64,000 bases of DNA. It comes from Stigmatella aurantiaca DW4/3-1. Its GTDB lineage: Bacteria > Myxococcota > Myxococcia > Myxococcales > Myxococcaceae. This document shows positions 30,985 to 41,703 of this stretch, piece after piece (the stretch's first letter is position 1; each line of letters starts with the position of its first letter). The position numbers and the translations under genes were made by a program. The stretch lies in the NCBI RefSeq assembly GCF_000165485.1, contig NC_014623.1, positions 1,631,501 through 1,695,500 of the forward strand, given 5' to 3'. Below the pieces are notes generated by a model. It was given only the letters and a program-made list of their open reading frames with translations, made no database searches and was not told where the DNA came from.

Positions 30985-33900
30985 TCAGCGCCGGGGCAGC
31001 GTGACGATGAACTCCGTGCCGAGTCCAGGCTCGCTCTCGAAGCGCAGGTCTCCGCCATGGCTCTGGACGACGATGTTGTAGCTGAGGGAGAGGCCGAGAC
31101 CGGTCCCCTCGCCGGGTTGCTTGGTGGTGAAGAAGGGGCTGAAGATCTTGCTTCGGGCTTCCGGCGCGATGCCGACCCCATTGTCCCAGATGCGCACCTC
31201 GGCATGGGAGCCCAAGTTCCGCGAGCTCACCTTGACCTGGGGGGGCTCTCCCGGAGCTTTTTGGTACCGGGCGATGACAGCCTGGTAGGCGTTGTTCACC
31301 AGGTTGACGATGACCTGGCCCAGCTCGCCCGGAGACACGCCTACCAGGCCGAGCGTCGCGTCGTAGTTCTCCGTGAGCTGCACCTCCAGCGAGGGCTCTC
31401 TCATCCGCAGTCCCTGGGAAATCAAGCTGACGTGCTCGGCGAGCAGCCGGTTCAGGTCCACTGGCACCCGGGCGGTCCGGCTGCCGGAGGAGTGTTGCCG
31501 CATGGAGTTGATGATCCGATCCACGCGCTTGCCGTGCTCGTCGATCTTCGAGGTGAGCGCCGCCAGATGCTCCGTCATGTCCCGGAGTTCGTCGAGCTTG
31601 TCCGGAGCTGGAGACGGTCCCAGCCTGGCCATCTCGGTCCGTAGCTCACGTGCCTGCTCCTGGGCGAGTTGCGCGAAGTTGTTGATGAAGTTGAGGGGAT
31701 TCTTCACTTCGTGCGCGATGGCAGCGGTCATCGCGCCCAGGGAGGCGAGCTTTTCTTTCTCTACCAGCAACTGCTGGGTCTCCCGCAGCCGGTGGAGGGT
31801 GACGACGAGCTGATCGTTCTTTTCGTTGAGTTCCCGGGTCCGTGCTTCGACCCGTTGCTCGAGGGTGTTGTAGAGCAGGGCGTTCTCGATGGAGATAGCG
31901 GCCTGCGCCGACAGGAGCGTCAGCACCTGGAGCCGGTCGCTGGTGAAGACGTCCGTCGCCAGGTGGTGCTCCAAGTAGAGAAGCCCGACGAGTTTCTTAT
32001 GGGCGAGCACTGGCAGGCACAGGATCGAGCGGGTCTTGTGCGCCATCACATACGGATCGGACTGGTAAGGAGGGGTGCTCAGGGCATCTCTCAGCACCAG
32101 GCTGTCCCGTAAATGCGCCACGTAATTGATGACGGACTTCGGGAGGGATGGGGCCGAGCTGACGGGAATCGACTGCAGGACGGTGGCTTCGGGCTGGTCA
32201 ACGGTGGCCTCGGCTTCGATGAACAGCCCGCTCTCTCGAGAGAGCAAAAGAACCGAGCGCTGAGAGCCGGCATGCTCCATCACGATGCGGATGAGCTTTT
32301 CCAGCAGACTCCGCAGGTGCAACTCGCCCGAGAGCACTTGGGAGGACCAGGTCACCGTCATCAGGTCCAGCACGCTCCCGGTGAGTTCAGCGGAAGCCAC
32401 CGGGGCTTCTTCGCCGCCTGCCGCGCGCCGTCCCAGCAACTCGGGATACCGCGCATCGAGTTCCGCCACGAGGGCTGTTGCTCCCCACCGGGCGTAGGCA
32501 TAGCGGGCCTCGCGCAGATAGCTCTGGGCCACCCGTGTCCGGCCGCCATGCAGGTGGAATCGGCCCGCCAACTCGTTGCTCAAGGCTTCGATGTGGAGAT
32601 AGCCACTGTCGCCCGATGCTTTGACCGCCTCGTCATACAGGGACATGGCCTGAAGGTCCTGCCCGGACAGGCGGGCCAACTCCGCCTGGAGCAAAACCTG
32701 TTGTTGGCGGAAGTTGGCGGGGCAGCCCGTGGCCCAGGATTGAAAATCCTCGATGAACCGGGGGAGCAGCTCACGGGGGTCTTCTCCCTGAGGGCCTCGT
32801 TGGGCCGCGGCAATCGCCAGCGCGAAGTAGAACCGGCTCTCGGGAACCAGGAGCGTTCCAGACGCCGTGGCGGACGTGCTCCGTTCGGACTCGAGGCCTG
32901 CCGCGAGCGCTTCTGGGTACCGGCCCGCCATGTAGAGGATCTTCATTTGATGAAGAGGCCAGAGGGGGGATGGGCGCGCGTTGCCGTGGGCTCCGGGGAG
33001 GCTCCAGGGTTTCTCCAGTTGCCCCTTCAGGCAGCGGATCCAATGGCGGTAGACGAGGAGATCCTGGATGTATTGCGAGTTCTGGCTCTGGCGGACGAAG
33101 TCGAAGTAGCGCTGCAATTCGCCTTCCACCTGCTCCAGCGGATCGCCCCGCACCGCCGCGAGCGAGATGAGGTTGCAGCAGGCATACACGCTGTAGGCGA
33201 GGTCTCCCGATTCGCTCAGCAGCTTGAAGGCCCGGAGCAGATAGGCCGAACTGGTCCGGGCAGGCTGGGTCCAGTGATTGATGAGGCCACCGAAGATGTT
33301 GTAGTTGCGGCGCTTCGACATGTTGAAGCCATGCCGCTCGGCCACCGCGATGGCCAGCTTGCCCAGGGCATGGCCGTTTGCGTAGTCCTTCGTGCAGGCC
33401 AGCAAGTGCGCATAGCTGGCCAGTCCATAGGCCCCCGCGTCCGAGTGCTTCCCCGTCCGGAGAACCTGATGGACCAGCGTGCACGTGATGAGCTGCTCGC
33501 GCTCCTTGCTCTCGAAGCCTTGGAAGAAAGGCGAGATGAGGTAGGCCAGCACCATGCCCAGGGCGAGCCGGTCCGGATCTGTCTCTTCCGGCAGGGCCTC
33601 CAGTTCTTCGAGCTTCCGCCCGCGCAGGTGCGATTCGATCTCCCGCCGCTCGCGCTCCAGTGCGGCGCTCACCGCCGCATCGTCCTCGGGCCAGTCCACT
33701 TCGAAGAGCTTCAGGGCCGCGACGCCGCACCGGCAGGCTTCCAGGTACTTGCCCAGGGTGGTGTAGAGGATGATCTTGGTCGTGTAGACTTGGGTCATCT
33801 GCAGCCGGGTCCGGGCGCGCGCCATCGCCAGGTCGAACAACGCCTCCGCTTCCGGGAAGCGGGTGAGCAGGTACTCGCACTCCGCCAACTCCACCGTGAG

Positions 33901-36258
33901 CAGCCAGAGCAACTCGAAGCGGGTCTGCCAGCCGTCCCACCCGAGGAGCCGGCGGCCGATCCTGAAGTACGCCGCCGCGGAGGCGTACGCGCTGGAAGCC
34001 TTGGCGCGGCGGCCGGATTGCAGGTTCAGCTGGGCGACGGCCTGCCGCTCCTCCTCGTTGTGCAGCACCTCCAACCCAAGGTTGAGCTGATCAATGACGC
34101 AGAAGCCGGGATCGTCAGGGGGCACCTGCTGGCGCCACAGCAGCCGGCCAATCTTCAGGTGGACCGCGGGCCGGTCTTCCACGGCGATCAGCGAGTATGC
34201 GGCCTGCTGTACCCGGTCATGGAGGAAGCGGTAGCGTCCTCTTTCCGGTGTGGGGTGGAGCCTTTCGTGGGCGTCACTGCCCGGAATGAGCAGCCCCTCT
34301 CGGACGGCCTCTCTCAGAAGCGGCTCGATGGTCTCCAGGGAGGTTTCGCTGATGTACGTCAGGGTCAACACGTCGAATGTGTTGCCCACACAGGCCGCCA
34401 GCTTGAGCACTTCCTGGATCTCTCGAGGCAGGCGCCGAAGCTTCTCCGCCATCAGGGCCAGCACGTTCTCCGTGTGAGGGGCCTTCGCGATTGCCTCCAG
34501 CGCCCACTGCCAGCGGCGGGCACCGTGGTCGAAGGAGAGCAGCCCTCTGGCATGCAGCGAGTGGAGAAGCTGCTTGATGAAGAATGGATTCCCCTGGGTT
34601 TTGGCCAGCAGGGTGTTGGCCAGGGCCTCCACCGCTTCTGGCTCCGTCCCCAGTGTTTCCGCCAGCAGCTGGCGGACATCCCTTGGCGCCAAGGGACCCA
34701 CGTGGAGCTCGATGACAGACTGACCTTCCTGGCGCAGTTGGTCCGCCAGCAGCATGAATGGGTGGGCGGGGGAGACCTCGTTGTTCCGGTAAGCGCACAG
34801 CAGCAGCAGGCTCCTGGAGGCTGGGTTCACGAGGAGCTGCTGAAGCAGCGCGAGTGAGGCCGAGTCCGCCCACTGCATGTCGTCCAGGAACAGGACCAAG
34901 GGGTGCTCTGGGCCGGTGAGCGCGGCGATGAGTTGCTCGAACACCCGGTGAAAGCGGGCTTGGGACTCCGTGCAGGGCAGCTCGGGGACGGGGGGTTGGG
35001 GACCCAGCAGCAGCTCCAACTCCGGGAGGAGGTCCGCTAGCAGACGGCCATTGGGGTTGATCGCTTCGATGATGCGGCTCTTCCAAGCGGCCACCGTGGA
35101 GGGTTCCTCGGTGAGCAACACGCGAAGGTGCTGGCGGAACGCCTGGGCCAGCGAGGAATAGGGAACGTTGCGATGGAGCTGATCGAACTTCCCGGAGGCA
35201 ATGGACCCTCGCCGGACCACCAGATGCCTGTGGAGTTCATGGACGAGTGAGGTTTTGCCAATGCCCGCATAGCCTGAAATCAGCAGCAGTTCGACGCTTC
35301 CGCTGGACACCCGTTCCAGCGCCGCCAGCAACTGTTTCAGCTCACGCTCGCGGCCATAGAGTTTCCCGGGGATGGAGAATGCCGAGGAGATGTCCTGCTG
35401 GCCGAGGGGAAAATCTTCGAGCCATGCCGCGCCTTTCAGGCGCCGGGAGGCCTCCCGGAGATCCGCCGCGAGCCCGGAAGCGCTTTGGTAGCGATCCTCC
35501 GCCATCTTGGCCAAGAGCTTGAGCACCATGCGCGAGAGCACGGCGGGACAGCCGGGACGGTGGGCTTCCGGCGGCAAGGGTTGCCGGGCGATGTGGCAGT
35601 GGATCAGCTCGATGGGATCGGCGGCCGCGAAGGGCTTGACCCCGGTCAGCATCTCGTAGAGGACGATGCCCAGCGTATACAGATCGGACCGGGCATCGAC
35701 GGCGCGGTTCATCCGGCCGGTTTGCTCCGGTGAGAGGTAGGCCAGCCGCTCCGCCATGTGCTGAAGGGGGCTTGGTCCTTGAGGGGAGCCCCGCTCCAGC
35801 CGCGTGGAAAGGCTGAAGTCGGTGAGCTTGATGCGGCCCGTCTCCGCATCGACGAGCACGCCTTCGGGGGTGAGGCTCTTGTGGATGACGTCGCGCCGGT
35901 GCAGTTCGCCGAGCGTGTCCGCCAGCGGCAAGGCAATCTGAAGAAACCTCGCGAAGTCCATCGGGCCAACGGTGATGAGCCGCCGCAGGGAGATGGCCGT
36001 GAAGTTCTCGAAGACGAGCGCTGCCCGGTGGTGGCTGTGCGCGAAGTCGAGCGGTTCCAGCACCCCCGGCAGTCTCAGCTCGCGGATGAGCTCGAACTCG
36101 GCCTTCAGCCGGGCAATGGCAGACGGGGAGGGATAGTCCTCCTTGAGGACTTTGAGGAGGACCGGGTGCCCCTTCTCGGCGTGCCTGCCGCGCAGGAGAA
36201 CGGCACCTCGGTACTGGGCGACCTCGTCCAGCAATGTGTATCCAGAGAAGGTGCTCAT
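30985..36258 (-). CDS. Ser/Thr (pseudo)kinase - AAA ATPase - GAF - sensor histidine kinase
   Basis: 1757 residues, complete. Residues 1-270 form a protein-kinase fold; 299-500 an AAA predictor-ATPase with Walker [10 protein letters not shown] (329-337) and [13 protein letters not shown] as Walker B; ~560-1180 a helical TPR-like region; ~1200-1390 a GAF domain ([20 protein letters not shown]); a coiled coil; and a histidine kinase with His1516 ([11 protein letters not shown]), N box ([10 protein letters not shown]) and G boxes ([21 protein letters not shown]). The kinase lobe keeps Lys36 but HKSLTPEG replaces HKDxxPSN (Ser128 for Asp, Gly133 for Asn) and DFS replaces DFG, so phosphotransfer is unlikely. 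No response regulator is adjacent. It is divergent from the YcaO-TfuA cassette. Confidence 0.9.
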
Positions 36259-36391: not shown

Positions 36392-36643
36392 ATGAAGGAG
36401 CTGCAGGTCGTTGGGGAGGATGGCAGGCTTTACCGGGTGCACGTGGAGCAAGGCACGGCACCGGAGGTATTGGCGCAAGGAGAGGGGGGCAAGCCGTCCG
36501 AGCCCCCGCCCAAGCCCGAGGCGCCGAAACCCGGCGTCCCGAAACCGGGCACTCCTGCGCAGGACCCCCAACCGACGAAAGAGCTTGATCAGCCGGGTTT
36601 CAAATCGTCCCCGGTGAGCATCTCGAGCTTCCGGGCGCGCTAG
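36392..36643 (+). CDS. Small Pro-rich protein, candidate substrate of the YcaO-TfuA pair
   Basis: 83 residues, no relative recognised. An N-terminal conserved-looking part (MKELQVVGEDGRLYRVHVEQG) is followed by a Pro/Lys/Glu spacer with PKPGVPKPGTP repeats and a Ser-rich tail (FKSSPVSISSFRAR). The layout of a folded recognition part, a flexible spacer and a short tail suits a RiPP precursor or a modified small protein, and it ends 18 nt before the YcaO gene. It contains no Cys, which is compatible with backbone thioamidation but not with azoline formation at Cys. GGAAG lies 6 nt before the ATG. Substrate status is inference from position. Confidence 0.6.
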   Translation: MKELQVVGEDGRLYRVHVEQGTAPEVLAQGEGGKPSEPPPKPEAPKPGVPKPGTPAQDPQPTKELDQPGFKSSPVSISSFRAR

Positions 36644-36661
36644 ACGCCCTCCCCGAGGCGC

Positions 36662-37885
36662 ATGCTCCGGCTTCCGGCAGGGTGGGCTCAGGCGAGCCCC
36701 TACCGCCCCGTTTCTTCCGAGGAGACGGTCGAGAGGTTGCGCCCGCTGCTCCCGGTGTTTGGCATCACCCGGATCGCGAACGTCACGGGCTTGGACGTTG
36801 TCGGCGTCCCCGTCGTGATGGTGTGTCGGCCGAATTCCCGGTCGTTGGCGGTCTTCCAGGGCAAAGGGCTGGATCTGGCCTCGGCGCAGGCGTCTGGCTT
36901 GATGGAAGCCGTGGAGAACTACCATGCCGAGCGGATTCTCTCGCCGGTCAAGCTCGCCAGCTTCCAGGAACTGCGCTTCACCCATGCGCTCGTGGACGTG
37001 GCGTCCCTGCCGCGAACCTCGGCACGGGATTTCCATCCTCAGCTGCGCCTGCTCTGGATCGAGGGACATGAGCTGCTCAGCGGCACATCGTTGTGGCTGC
37101 CGTTCGAGCTGGTTCACACCAACTATACCCTCCCCTTCCCGCCTGGCAGCGGCACCTTCCTGCCCAGTTCGAATGGGCTGGCTTCGGGCAACCACTGGCT
37201 GGAGGCGGTCTGCCACGGCCTCTGCGAGGTGGTGGAGCGGGACGCGGTCACGCTGTGGTTCCTGAACGGCGCGGAAGGGCGGGCGCGGAGCCAGTTGGCC
37301 CTGGAGACCGTGGCGGATCCAGGGTGCCGTCAGGTGCTTGCCCGCTTCGAAGAGGCCGGTTTGGAGGTGGCCGCGTGGGACGTCACCTCGGATGTGGGTA
37401 TTCCGGCCTGTCTGTGCGCACTGCTGGAGCCAGAGGGTTCTTTGCAGCCGGTGGGCTCCGTGTTCGGGATGGGGTGCCATCCGGCGAGGGAGGTGGCCTT
37501 GCGGAGGGCGCTCACGGAGGCAGCGCAGGTGCGGTTGACCGCCATTACGGGCTCCCGGGATGACTTGCGTCGGCGCCACTACGCGCGCGCCCGGGAGACG
37601 CCCTGGCTGGCGCAGTTGCGCGCGGGGATGGGGACTCAGCCGGGATGTGATTTTCACGAGGTGCCCACCTGGAGGGGCACTTCGCTGGAGGCGGACCTGG
37701 GCTGGATGTTGGAGCGCCTGCGGGGTGCTGGTTTGACACAGGTGGTGGCGGTGGACCTGACCCGGCCAGAGTTCCAGATTCCCGTGGTGCGGGTGGTCAT
37801 CCCCGGCCTCGAGGGGCCGTCCTCGATGCCCATTTACGTGCCGGGAGTCCGGGCGCGCCAGCATCTGGCGAGGCAGGGGGCGTGA
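36662..37885 (+). CDS. YcaO-family ATP-dependent backbone-modifying enzyme
   Basis: 407 residues covering one YcaO domain. The ATP/Mg-binding elements are visible: FQGKGLDLASAQASGLMEAVENYHAE (residues ~62-87, Gly-Lys-Gly then Glu-x3-Glu) and EAVCHGLCEVVERDAV (~181-196). The C-terminus lacks the PxPxP tail of azoline-forming cyclodehydratases. YcaO enzymes phosphorylate a peptide amide oxygen with ATP; with TfuA they install thioamides from sulfide. No E1-like C protein or dehydrogenase is nearby, and the next gene is TfuA, so thioamidation is the best guess. GAGG precedes the ATG. The stop overlaps the tfuA start (GTGA). Confidence 0.88.
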   Translation: MLRLPAGWAQASPYRPVSSEETVERLRPLLPVFGITRIANVTGLDVVGVPVVMVCRPNSRSLAVFQGKGLDLASAQASGLMEAVENYHAERILSPVKLASFQELRFTHALVDVASLPRTSARDFHPQLRLLWIEGHELLSGTSLWLPFELVHTNYTLPFPPGSGTFLPSSNGLASGNHWLEAVCHGLCEVVERDAVTLWFLNGAEGRARSQLALETVADPGCRQVLARFEEAGLEVAAWDVTSDVGIPACLCALLEPEGSLQPVGSVFGMGCHPAREVALRRALTEAAQVRLTAITGSRDDLRRRHYARARETPWLAQLRAGMGTQPGCDFHEVPTWRGTSLEADLGWMLERLRGAGLTQVVAVDLTRPEFQIPVVRVVIPGLEGPSSMPIYVPGVRARQHLARQGA

Positions 37886-39225
37886 AGCTCATCGTGTTCA
37901 CGGGGCCGACCCTGTCCGTGGACGAGGCCCGGGAGGAACTGGAAGCCCTTTACCGGCCTCCCGTCGCGCAGGGAGAGGTGTACCGTGCCGCGCTCGAGCG
38001 GCCGTGGGGCATCGGCATCATCGATGGATACTTCGAGCGCGTTCCGGCTGTCTGGCACAAGGAGATCCTCTGGGCGATGTCCCAGGGGATTCACGTCTTC
38101 GGCAGCGCCAGCATGGGGGCGCTGCGGGCCGCGGAGCTGGCGGCGTTCGGGATGGAGGGGGTGGGTGCCATCTACGAGGCCTTCCAGCGCGGCGCGTTGC
38201 AGGACGATGACGAGGTGGCGGTGGCGCAAGGGCCCGCGGAGCAAGGCCATCGGGCCCTCTCCGAGGCGATGGTGAACATCCGGGCCACGCTGCGGCTCGC
38301 GGAGGAGGAAGCCGTCATCTCCCCTGCGGTGGGTACGGGACTGGAGCGGATCGCGAAGCGCCTGTTCTTCCCCGAGCGGGTGTACCCGCGCATCCTGGCC
38401 GCCGCCACCCGGGAAGGGTGGCCAGAAGGAGAGTTGACGGCGTTTCGAGAGTGGGTTTCCCAGGGGCGCGTCAACCTGAAGCGGGCAGATGCGCTCGCCA
38501 TGCTGCGGGTCATGCGAGAGCGGAGGGAGGTGGCTCCAAGGCCCAAGGAGGTGCAGTTCTCGTTCGAGCACACCGACACATGGGAGGCGTTGAGGCGCGA
38601 GGCGGCGGGGCTTCCGTCCGGTCATGCCTCGGAAGAAGACATACCGCGAGAGGCATTGTTGGACGAACTGCGGCTCGAGGGCCGCTATGCCACGGTGGCT
38701 CGCCTGGCGCTGGCGCGCGCGCTCGCGCTGGATGAGGCCCGGAGGCAAGGGCTTCGGCATGATGAGGCGTCACTTGTGCGAACCGGGCATGCGCTGCGTG
38801 AGGCGCTTGGACTGGTGGATCCAGAGCGGTTCGGAAAGTGGCTGGAAGAGAGCGGGGTGGAGAACTTCCAGCGACTGCTGCGCGATGAGGCTGACGTGCA
38901 TTGGGTCCAGGGCATGTTCGCGCCAGAGCTGGAGCAGGGCCTGTTGGATCACCTGCGAGTCACAGGGGAGTACATGGTCCTGATGGCCCGCGTGCGGGAC
39001 AAGCAACGGGTTCTTCGGGAACAAGGGCTGGATGCGCTGACGTCCGCAGCGGAGAGGATTCCCCCGGGGGAGTCATGGCGCTGGTATTTCGGCACACGGC
39101 TGGGCCGATCCATTCCGGAGAACCTGGAGGTCTATGCACGTGCCGCGGGGTTCGAGGATGCCCAGGCGCTGGAGGCGGCGGTGTCGAGGGAGTGGCTCTA
39201 CGTCTGTGCGCTCGGAGCCAGGTAG
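37882..39225 (+). CDS. TfuA-like protein
   Basis: 447 residues. The first ~220 match the TfuA core: IVFTGPTLSVDEAREELEALY, PPVAQGEVYRAA, GIIDGYFERVPAVWHKEILWAM and VFGSASMGALRAAELAAFGM. A second, helical half follows, ending near WRWYFGTRLGRSIPENLEVYA. TfuA partners YcaO in thioamidation of thioviridamide-type RiPPs and of methyl-CoM reductase, probably in sulfur delivery or activation. The GTG start at 37882 overlaps the YcaO stop, so the two are coupled. Its last 266 bases lie opposite the 3' end of the protease gene. Confidence 0.88.
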   Translation: MKLIVFTGPTLSVDEAREELEALYRPPVAQGEVYRAALERPWGIGIIDGYFERVPAVWHKEILWAMSQGIHVFGSASMGALRAAELAAFGMEGVGAIYEAFQRGALQDDDEVAVAQGPAEQGHRALSEAMVNIRATLRLAEEEAVISPAVGTGLERIAKRLFFPERVYPRILAAATREGWPEGELTAFREWVSQGRVNLKRADALAMLRVMRERREVAPRPKEVQFSFEHTDTWEALRREAAGLPSGHASEEDIPREALLDELRLEGRYATVARLALARALALDEARRQGLRHDEASLVRTGHALREALGLVDPERFGKWLEESGVENFQRLLRDEADVHWVQGMFAPELEQGLLDHLRVTGEYMVLMARVRDKQRVLREQGLDALTSAAERIPPGESWRWYFGTRLGRSIPENLEVYARAAGFEDAQALEAAVSREWLYVCALGAR

Positions 39226-40953: not shown

Positions 40954-41703
40954 CTAGTAGCAGGATCCGACTCCGCTGCAGCTGCAGTTGTTGCTCGCGA
41001 AGGAGTAGTCGTCGGAGGCCGCCGCGAAGCTTCCGAGGCCGTAGTCATGCTTGGCGCAGTCCTGGGTGTACGCGGTGGTGCCCACGCAATTGGGGGTGCT
41101 GGTGATGCCACAGCCCTGGCCGCAGCGGCCCTTACAGCCCTGGCCCGAGCCGCCCGTGCAGCTACATCCCCGGCCCGCTTGACGGGTGTAACCTCCGATG
41201 TTCTGGCTGCCGCAAGAGCACGAGATGTGAACCCAACCGCGCTCCGCGACATACCGGTACGGCGTGAGGGTCTCGCCCACCGGGACGATCTGCATGAAGC
41301 TCGTCTGGCGCATCGCAGCGTCCTCGACGCGCGAGCGTGCCGTGTCCTGCTCGGGCACGGCGTTCGTGATTCCCTCGAGCAGCGGGGTGATCAAACGGGC
41401 CTGGGCCGCATCGAGCGGGCTTCCGCTCGGCATGAAGTGGCCCTCGCCCTGGTTGTAGTCGATGCGGAAGCCGATGACCGGATCCCCGAAGTCATAAGTG
41501 ACCTCCACGACGTTGGGGGCGCTCTCGACCAACATCGCGCGAACGGACGTGCCGCCCGAGTGATACGTGGCCTCGAGCGTGGACGCATCGTGCTTCAGGA
41601 GTGCGAAGCCTTCCGACGCTTCTTCCGCTTGCTCAGGTCCGTTCGAGCAGCCCAGCGCCAAGGTCAGCGCCATCGTGATTCCACACAGGGAGGCCGTTTT
41701 CAT
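40954..41703 (-). CDS. Cys-rich lipoprotein with a C-x2-HD motif
   Basis: 249 residues: lipobox LTLALGC (Cys19), a ~115-residue domain of unknown type, and a Cys-rich end (CSCGSQNIGG, GCSCTGGSGQGCKGRCGQGCG, TQDCAKHDYGLG, NNCSCSG). DCAKHDYGL resembles the Cys-x2-His-Asp catalytic loop of secreted phospholipase A2-like folds, though no Ca-binding loop is obvious. GAGGGTGA precedes the ATG. It heads a three-gene run with the YwqK and protease genes (gaps 32 and 18 nt). Function unknown. Confidence 0.75.
   Translation of the reverse strand: MKTASLCGITMALTLALGCSNGPEQAEEASEGFALLKHDASTLEATYHSGGTSVRAMLVESAPNVVEVTYDFGDPVIGFRIDYNQGEGHFMPSGSPLDAAQARLITPLLEGITNAVPEQDTARSRVEDAAMRQTSFMQIVPVGETLTPYRYVAERGWVHISCSCGSQNIGGYTRQAGRGCSCTGGSGQGCKGRCGQGCGITSTPNCVGTTAYTQDCAKHDYGLGSFAAASDDYSFASNNCSCSGVGSCY

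Follow-up and report, generated by a model that had tools for sequence, protein, structure and literature searches.

The locus considered here raises the question of what a YcaO–TfuA enzyme pair modifies in the laboratory myxobacterium Stigmatella aurantiaca DW4/3-1 (order Myxococcales). It lies in a stretch of 64,000 nucleotides (contig NC_014623.1, positions 1,631,501 to 1,695,500), which is referred to below as the window and supplies the coordinates of all features, and it consists of the genes for YcaO and TfuA preceded by a gene for a protein of 83 residues. Characterized substrates of such pairs are few, comprising McrA, four named classes of ribosomally synthesized and post-translationally modified peptides (RiPPs) and the product of the std cluster, as listed in PMC13174530. 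The original prediction proposed a minimal thioamidation system acting either on the small protein or on a cellular protein. The comparison of related loci suggests that a head-defined family of probable substrates, to which the small protein belongs, is coupled to signalling ATPases; the system is thus larger than first stated, and the idea that the small protein is the substrate is strengthened.

The three genes are tightly packed on the forward strand, as had been predicted. The small gene extends from an ATG at 36392 to a stop at 36643, the YcaO gene (36662–37885, 407 residues) starts with an ATG 18 nt downstream, and the TfuA gene (37882–39225, 447 residues) shares with it a GTGA overlap at 37882–37885. 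Both enzymes are recognized by Pfam (YcaO, PF02624, 8.9e-88, 295 bits; TfuA, 1.5e-46), and no match to the small protein was found in Pfam or NCBIfam. The YcaO protein belongs, by Pfam, TIGR03266 and alignment, to the TfuA-associated type without a PxPxP tail and ends in RARQHLARQGA. A profile of 20 YcaO sequences, including that of the window, matches MJ1094 (6pe3) over its length with an E value of 9.6e-57. The window protein retains the columns that are invariant in this alignment, which are regarded as the ATP/Mg residues, in line with the ATP motifs named in the original prediction. For TfuA, the AlphaFold model (predicted local distance difference test score, pLDDT, 87.4; predicted template modelling score, pTM, 0.57) comprises an N-terminal TfuA fold (residues 1–218) and an all-helical C-terminal domain (approximately 232–443). 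The model superimposes on the Methanosarcina acetivorans TfuA structure 6xp8 with a Z score of 30.9 and a root-mean-square deviation of 1.2 over 216 residues, and fold searches returned essentially the N-terminal half. The columns H59, K60 and S77 are invariant in 29 TfuA sequences, and the invariant Lys and Ser are presumably catalytic.

These features bear on the chemistry of the pair, whose product should be a backbone thioamide by analogy with the established chemistry of YcaO and TfuA. The chemistry of YcaO enzymes is versatile, and the four Ser residues among the last 21 of the small protein could be turned into oxazolines, so an azoline, an amidine or another YcaO product might be formed instead of a thioamide. 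Such an outcome is nevertheless improbable: TfuA is adjacent, its N-terminal half adopts the fold known from the archaeal TfuA of thioamidation, and the 18 window proteins scanned between 22.6 and 50.3 kb did not include a cyclodehydratase partner. The same scan, which covered these 18 proteins and not the smaller frames, revealed no further RiPP enzyme, and within that range the prediction that no other RiPP tailoring gene is present holds.

The evidence on the substrate comes from a survey of related loci. TfuA was present in 107 of 145 genomes of the order; 60 stretches were taken around TfuA places, mainly the best-scoring ones, and were supplemented with the best 80 of at least 558 confirmed YcaO loci from named genomes. 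The test set comprised the loci with a YcaO at least 38 % identical to that of the window and was reduced by the removal of near-copies from 123 to 112 and finally 107 loci, the last five removed being L084, L110/L085, L118/L072, L120/L077 and L189/L069 (L and G numbers denote loci and genomes, respectively). Locus L079, whose YcaO is 34 % identical and is placed elsewhere, was assigned to neither the test nor the control set. TfuA follows YcaO in 105 of the 107 loci, and in the other two (L149 and L180) the stretch ends with YcaO at a contig end. The TfuA stretches (of the 60) lacking a YcaO of at least 38 % identity served as controls, being approximately 7.9 kb long, compared with up to 13 kb for most of the YcaO-anchored loci.

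The proteins encoded upstream of YcaO in very different bacteria share the stretch xIxGxDGRLYxV, as is apparent from the heads of Azospirillum (MIRGADGRLYAV), Niveispirillum irakense (LMRGADGRLYRI), Myxococcus (LIYAPDGNVYWV), Sorangium (VIAADNGKIYYL) and the window (QVVGEDGRLYRV). A position-specific score matrix of 12 columns was derived from 34 seeds and applied to all open reading frames of at least 35 residues on both strands, with a threshold of 18.7, just above the best score (18.6) among the reversed frames of the 123 loci. The head of the window protein (LQVVGEDGRLYRV, 36401–36439, forward strand), which is not among the seeds, scores 23.9. A head above the threshold lies directly upstream and on the same strand in 60 of the 107 loci (62 of 112 before the last five near-copies were removed), a count that is partly circular since the seeds were drawn from the same loci; in 23 of the 60, including the window, the head is a 12-mer that is no seed. 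Nine further heads occur elsewhere in the 107 loci, some being extra copies or displaced partners (L147, L142, L171) and one (at L056b) belonging to a neighbouring cluster. By comparison, none of the 18 other TfuA loci (L091–L109 without L092; no YcaO is seen in the stretches of L094 and L107), nor an orphan TfuA locus (L205), passes the threshold, the best score being 17.4. A head family adjoining this YcaO–TfuA subfamily in several phyla is expected of a substrate and therefore supports that part of the original prediction. Recognition of the head is attributed more readily to YcaO or the TfuA core than to the C-terminal domain of TfuA, since head-bearing partners also accompany short TfuA proteins: the helical domain is missing from some relatives, which have 250 rather than 450 residues. 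An assignment of this domain as a SurA-like peptide-binding module was considered and not adopted, since SurA_N_3 was matched by 5 of 29 TfuA members at E ≤ 0.1 (best 9.1e-05) and not by the window copy, and no clear solved relative was found by sequence (best E 0.14), so that the resemblance is at most suggestive.

Behind the head, the proteins diverge. Most myxobacterial and some proteobacterial loci carry a tail of the form C-x-L-L-N-L-x-S (class I), in proteins of approximately 90–320 residues by the starts chosen and with the whole module sometimes present twice. Azospirillum and Kiloniellales have AGRMxI, arranged in tandem in L129 and L144 (DYxAGRMxIEA). Further tandem tails are SDIIVS behind the upstream head of L149, GAMAAR in a head protein of L171 that lies 4.8 kb downstream, past TfuA, and CFAY in L179 behind a head that scores 17.8, slightly below the threshold. 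The tail labels, which were assigned by loose regular expressions with near-copies included, follow the YcaO tree, requiring 27 changes compared with a mean of 60.5 after shuffling, a difference to which the near-copies contribute. In addition, of 41 matches to the myxobacterial module, 38 have a TfuA match no more than 8 kb away, and of the remaining three, two sit where a contig ends. A conserved N-terminal head joined to a variable, in part repeated, C-terminal portion beside a tailoring enzyme is, as judged from the sequences, the layout of RiPP precursors. The differing tails behind the head, which in some loci are repeated in tandem as in a leader–core arrangement, make the small protein the probable substrate.

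The other target named in the original prediction, a cellular protein, has lost ground. On that account the pair would act on another protein of the cell and the small protein would be an accessory factor for docking or chaperoning. YcaO enzymes are known to modify proteins, McrA together with TfuA and, in E. coli, uL16 (PMC13063428), and the class I module may itself be a folded domain as judged from its model. Nevertheless, variable and partly tandem-repeated tails behind a constant head are expected of substrates and not of accessory factors, and McrA is absent, as PF02249 found no match in the genome in a search that was positive in two methanogens. An accessory role for the small protein is thus improbable.

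The small frame is a gene, because a counterpart 75 % identical to it lies at the same place in a congener (G005; L007/L081) and the ratio of non-synonymous to synonymous substitution rates (dN/dS) for this pair is 0.43. The value for YcaO in the same single comparison is 0.20. A chance or leader frame without any tie to YcaO could be imagined given the shortness of the frame, the lack of a Pfam or NCBIfam family and the confirmation of close orthologs in two genomes alone; the dN/dS, the ortholog in place and the common head disfavour such a frame to the point that it is highly improbable. A third member in G033 (L057) starts with MKELQIVGDDGQVYRM and precedes its own YcaO; its head scores just 16.2, below the threshold. 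The YcaO proteins of the window, L081 and L057 form one clade (support 98), and a small protein of the MKELQ type is common to all three. Within the 83-residue protein, the head is followed by a variable linker rich in Pro and Lys (KPSEPPPKPEAPKPGVPKPGTPAQDPQ, 36491–36571), which has diverged in G005, and by a conserved tail (DQPGFKSSPVSISSFRAR, 36587–36640) that is the candidate core. In the single pair available, dN/dS was 0.72 for the head (with few changes), 0.51 for the middle and 0.13 for the last 18 codons, and because the tail has the lowest value it appears to be the likeliest site of modification.

The second extension of the original prediction concerns signalling. A gene for a protein of 1757 residues (30985–36258, reverse strand), with the Pfam order Pkinase, AAA_16, GAF, HisKA and HATPase and no tetratricopeptide repeat (TPR) match, begins at a distance of 133 nt from the small gene; the original prediction did not mention it. 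A profile grown from this regulator detected homologous large AAA_16 proteins beside 70 of the 107 loci (73 of 112 before the last near-copies were removed), located upstream on the same strand in 57, downstream in seven and on the other strand in six, including the window. The description of the system as minimal is therefore not supported. None of the 19 control loci (L091–L109, one of which, L092, belongs to the test set as well) has such a regulator, whereas 28 of 39 of the equally short loci L050–L092 have one, the same gene serving both L056 and L056b. Of the 37 loci lacking a regulator, 17 have less than 4 kb of upstream sequence. AAA_16 proteins are frequent in the window genome (111 matches in 10.26 Mb, 46 of them above the cut-off), and a chance neighbour within 5 kb is expected there in approximately 5 % of cases. 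The large AAA_16 proteins usually contain TPRs and a kinase or cyclase part, with ends that vary by lineage: Guanylate_cyc–AAA_16–TPR in Azospirillum and in metagenome-assembled genomes (MAGs) of Kiloniellales and an acidobacterium, and Pkinase–AAA_16, mostly with TPR matches, in the myxobacterial loci, L134 and an alteromonad MAG. On the plasmid of Azospirillum sp. B510, the order is AAA ATPase, ribbon–helix–helix protein (other strand), 65-residue protein, YcaO, TfuA and Crp/Fnr; that of A. lipoferum 4B is similar but has an IS5 transposase and a hypothetical gene following the cyclase protein, and both 65-residue proteins bear the head. A link to a defence system was discarded, since the PADLOC matches correspond to the kinase and cyclase domains of the regulators, and the small protein, YcaO and TfuA have none.

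The company of these regulators admits of more than one explanation. The thioamidated product may act inside the cell, as a ligand or partner through which the kinase, cyclase or histidine-kinase output of the AAA_16 regulator is switched, and would then not be an exported natural product. Such a role is consistent with the regulator lying beside 70 of the 107 loci and with the finding that no recurrent protease or transporter was recognized among the 18 largest neighbour clusters, most of which are without identification. A pair without the enzymes in G005 also suggests that the regulator goes with the precursor: at L203 (106–4392; G005:C2:9136105-9140391), a gene of the Pkinase–AAA_16 type stands immediately before that of a class I module protein, and neither YcaO nor TfuA occurs in the next 5.6 kb downstream or elsewhere in the 10 kb stretch, the nearest TfuA match being 108 kb away. 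On the other hand, this is the one clear orphan pair, the second (L204) lying where a contig ends, the window genome is rich in AAA_16 proteins, and plain transcriptional control would fit the co-location equally well. A ligand role is therefore possible but not favoured. A still broader proposal, in which a thioamidated peptide or domain is the dedicated partner of a STAND-like AAA_16–TPR receptor with exchangeable outputs (Ser/Thr kinase, nucleotide cyclase or histidine kinase) in a signalling module found in several phyla, with the thioamide as an intracellular switch rather than part of an antibiotic, is speculative and rather unlikely.

Several observations weigh against the precursor reading. 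A head above the threshold directly upstream is lacking in 47 of the 107 loci, and 16 of these, from Paracoccus and further alpha-, beta- and gammaproteobacteria, make up a separate YcaO group (support 90) and apparently rely for the most part on another partner; on an annotated Paracoccus plasmid, YcaO–TfuA is listed without a small gene. The original prediction would have been refuted by a lack of conservation of the small frame beside YcaO–TfuA elsewhere; it withstood this test, although the conservation applies to the widespread head family and less to the protein itself, as close orthologs of the 83-residue protein were confirmed in G005 and G033 alone and matches at E ≤ 0.01 were found in 14 of 116 genomes (that of the window included), 11 of these being weak (E 0.001–0.01). 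Judged by sequence, the exact protein is narrow in range and its head is not. The tail of the window protein has no Cys and does not contain C-x-[LVI]-[LIVM]-[ND]-L, the tail of L057 differs from it, and the class I module alignments A1 and A4 found no match in the window genome; a derivation of the window tail from a worn-down C-x-L-L-N-L core, the most frequent core, looked plausible by eye but was rejected, as 585 of 5000 shuffles were equally good. The model of the class I module is weak (pLDDT 67.5, pTM 0.42), and its assignment to a known fold was dropped for that reason. It may nonetheless fold as a domain, which would fit the modification of a protein as well as a cleaved peptide; a folded domain, if real, would place the system nearer to the protein modification described for uL16 (PMC13063428) than to a classical RiPP. 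Finally, a recurrent exporter was likewise not recognized in the 18 largest neighbour clusters, most of them unassigned, and the trypsin-like gene on the other strand of the window recurs among the compared loci just in L081.

On balance, the precursor reading is considered probable. The 83-residue protein would then be a RiPP-like precursor in which the head (VVGEDGRLYRV) serves as a leader or docking motif read by YcaO–TfuA, the Pro-rich part acts as a spacer and the conserved tail (approximately the last 18 residues) carries the modification site. YcaO would activate a backbone amide with ATP, TfuA would deliver sulfide from a sulfur carrier, a role in which the proteins behind three ThiS-family matches in the genome could serve, and a thioamide would replace the amide (+16 Da). 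Production would be linked to a STAND-like AAA_16 protein whose output part is a kinase, a cyclase or a histidine kinase and whose gene is divergent in the window. Because related operons in several phyla keep the head and often the large signalling ATPase, a hitherto undescribed family of modified peptides tied to signalling is suggested. The head motif flags a probable substrate by sequence alone and thereby offers a handle on many uncharacterized YcaO–TfuA loci in organisms as different as Azospirillum, myxobacteria, Acidobacteriota and the source of a verrucomicrobial MAG, and the frequent company of signalling ATPases suggests that thioamidation also serves regulation.

Other features of the window and of related loci may be recorded here. 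Other scanned proteins encoded at 22.6–50.3 kb match carbohydrate enzymes and the aldo/keto reductase, YceI, LVIVD-repeat, PhoX, trypsin, MORN and AhpC/TSA families, and a putative lipoprotein at 40954–41703 (reverse strand) has a Cys/Gly-rich C-terminal half (CSCGSQNIGG...GCSCTGGSGQGCKGRCGQGC). A second YcaO–TfuA pair, with a YcaO approximately 31 % identical to that of the window, is present at L093 (G000:C1:3574922-3582781, in the window genome) and at similar loci among L091–L108, and occurs in many genomes of the order; at L093 it is preceded by a 240-residue protein that seems to us to resemble the TIGR02265/V4R type of Myxococcales. At L092 (G092:C11), a small frame ending in TSICSYCTP lies near YcaO–TfuA, and the protein before the pair resembles a thiopeptide-type LanB dehydratase; the locus is perhaps a lanthipeptide–thioamide hybrid. 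The orphan TfuA of L205 (6592–7500, reverse strand; G000:C1:6840840) has 302 residues, is approximately 53 % identical to that of the window, has no YcaO within 14 kb and may work with a YcaO in trans. At L065 (G005:C2:8047022-8054878), a VTCGALNLKSF tail lies just upstream of and in frame with YcaO, with no head-bearing frame before it, and is perhaps a decayed precursor.

Among known systems, the pair that thioamidates a glycine of McrA provides the best NCBIfam models for both window enzymes and uses the same two-protein machinery. The scores nevertheless fall short (YcaO with TIGR03266, 226.6 < 365; TfuA with NF033432, 215.4 < 235.2), and the window genome differs in lacking McrA and in having a small partner gene. 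The thiovarsolins and other actinobacterial RiPPs share the arrangement of YcaO–TfuA beside a small precursor, with a leader and repeated cores in the thiovarsolin type, as described in PMC6511847; the locus studied here differs in its taxa, in its AAA_16 company and in that the 18 window proteins scanned comprise neither a heme oxygenase nor an amidinotransferase. In the std cluster of Streptomyces thermodiastaticus, YcaO–TfuA thioamidates a small precursor in vitro; its core is SNKEWQE and the cluster includes an MNIO and a carbamoyltransferase (PMC13174530), neither of which was found among the scanned window proteins. Worldwide mining of TfuA clusters placed Corallococcus among the dominant families (PMC8120280); no description of the head or of the triad was found in the literature searched, which did not extend to the supplements of that study, where the precursors may sit unnamed in its networks. 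The company of a kinase was already known for azole loci, Haft et al. (PMC2887384) having noted that one group of azole-type precursors has a large Ser/Thr kinase as its neighbour, and no such report for YcaO–TfuA was found in the literature searched. In NCBIfam, this type of protein is named 'TOMM system kinase/cyclase fusion protein' (TIGR03903). Of seven regulators compared with that model (cut-off 705.75), one passes (L188, 795.3) and the other six score 142–288, that of the window 142.4. The TIGR03903 family and the NHLP-Burk thiazole/oxazole-modified microcin (TOMM) clusters resemble the present system in having a giant kinase- or cyclase–AAA_16 protein beside a RiPP locus of the YcaO type; they are azole loci with a cyclodehydratase and NHLP precursors (PMC2887384), whereas here the regulator accompanies a YcaO–TfuA pair and a different family of precursors.

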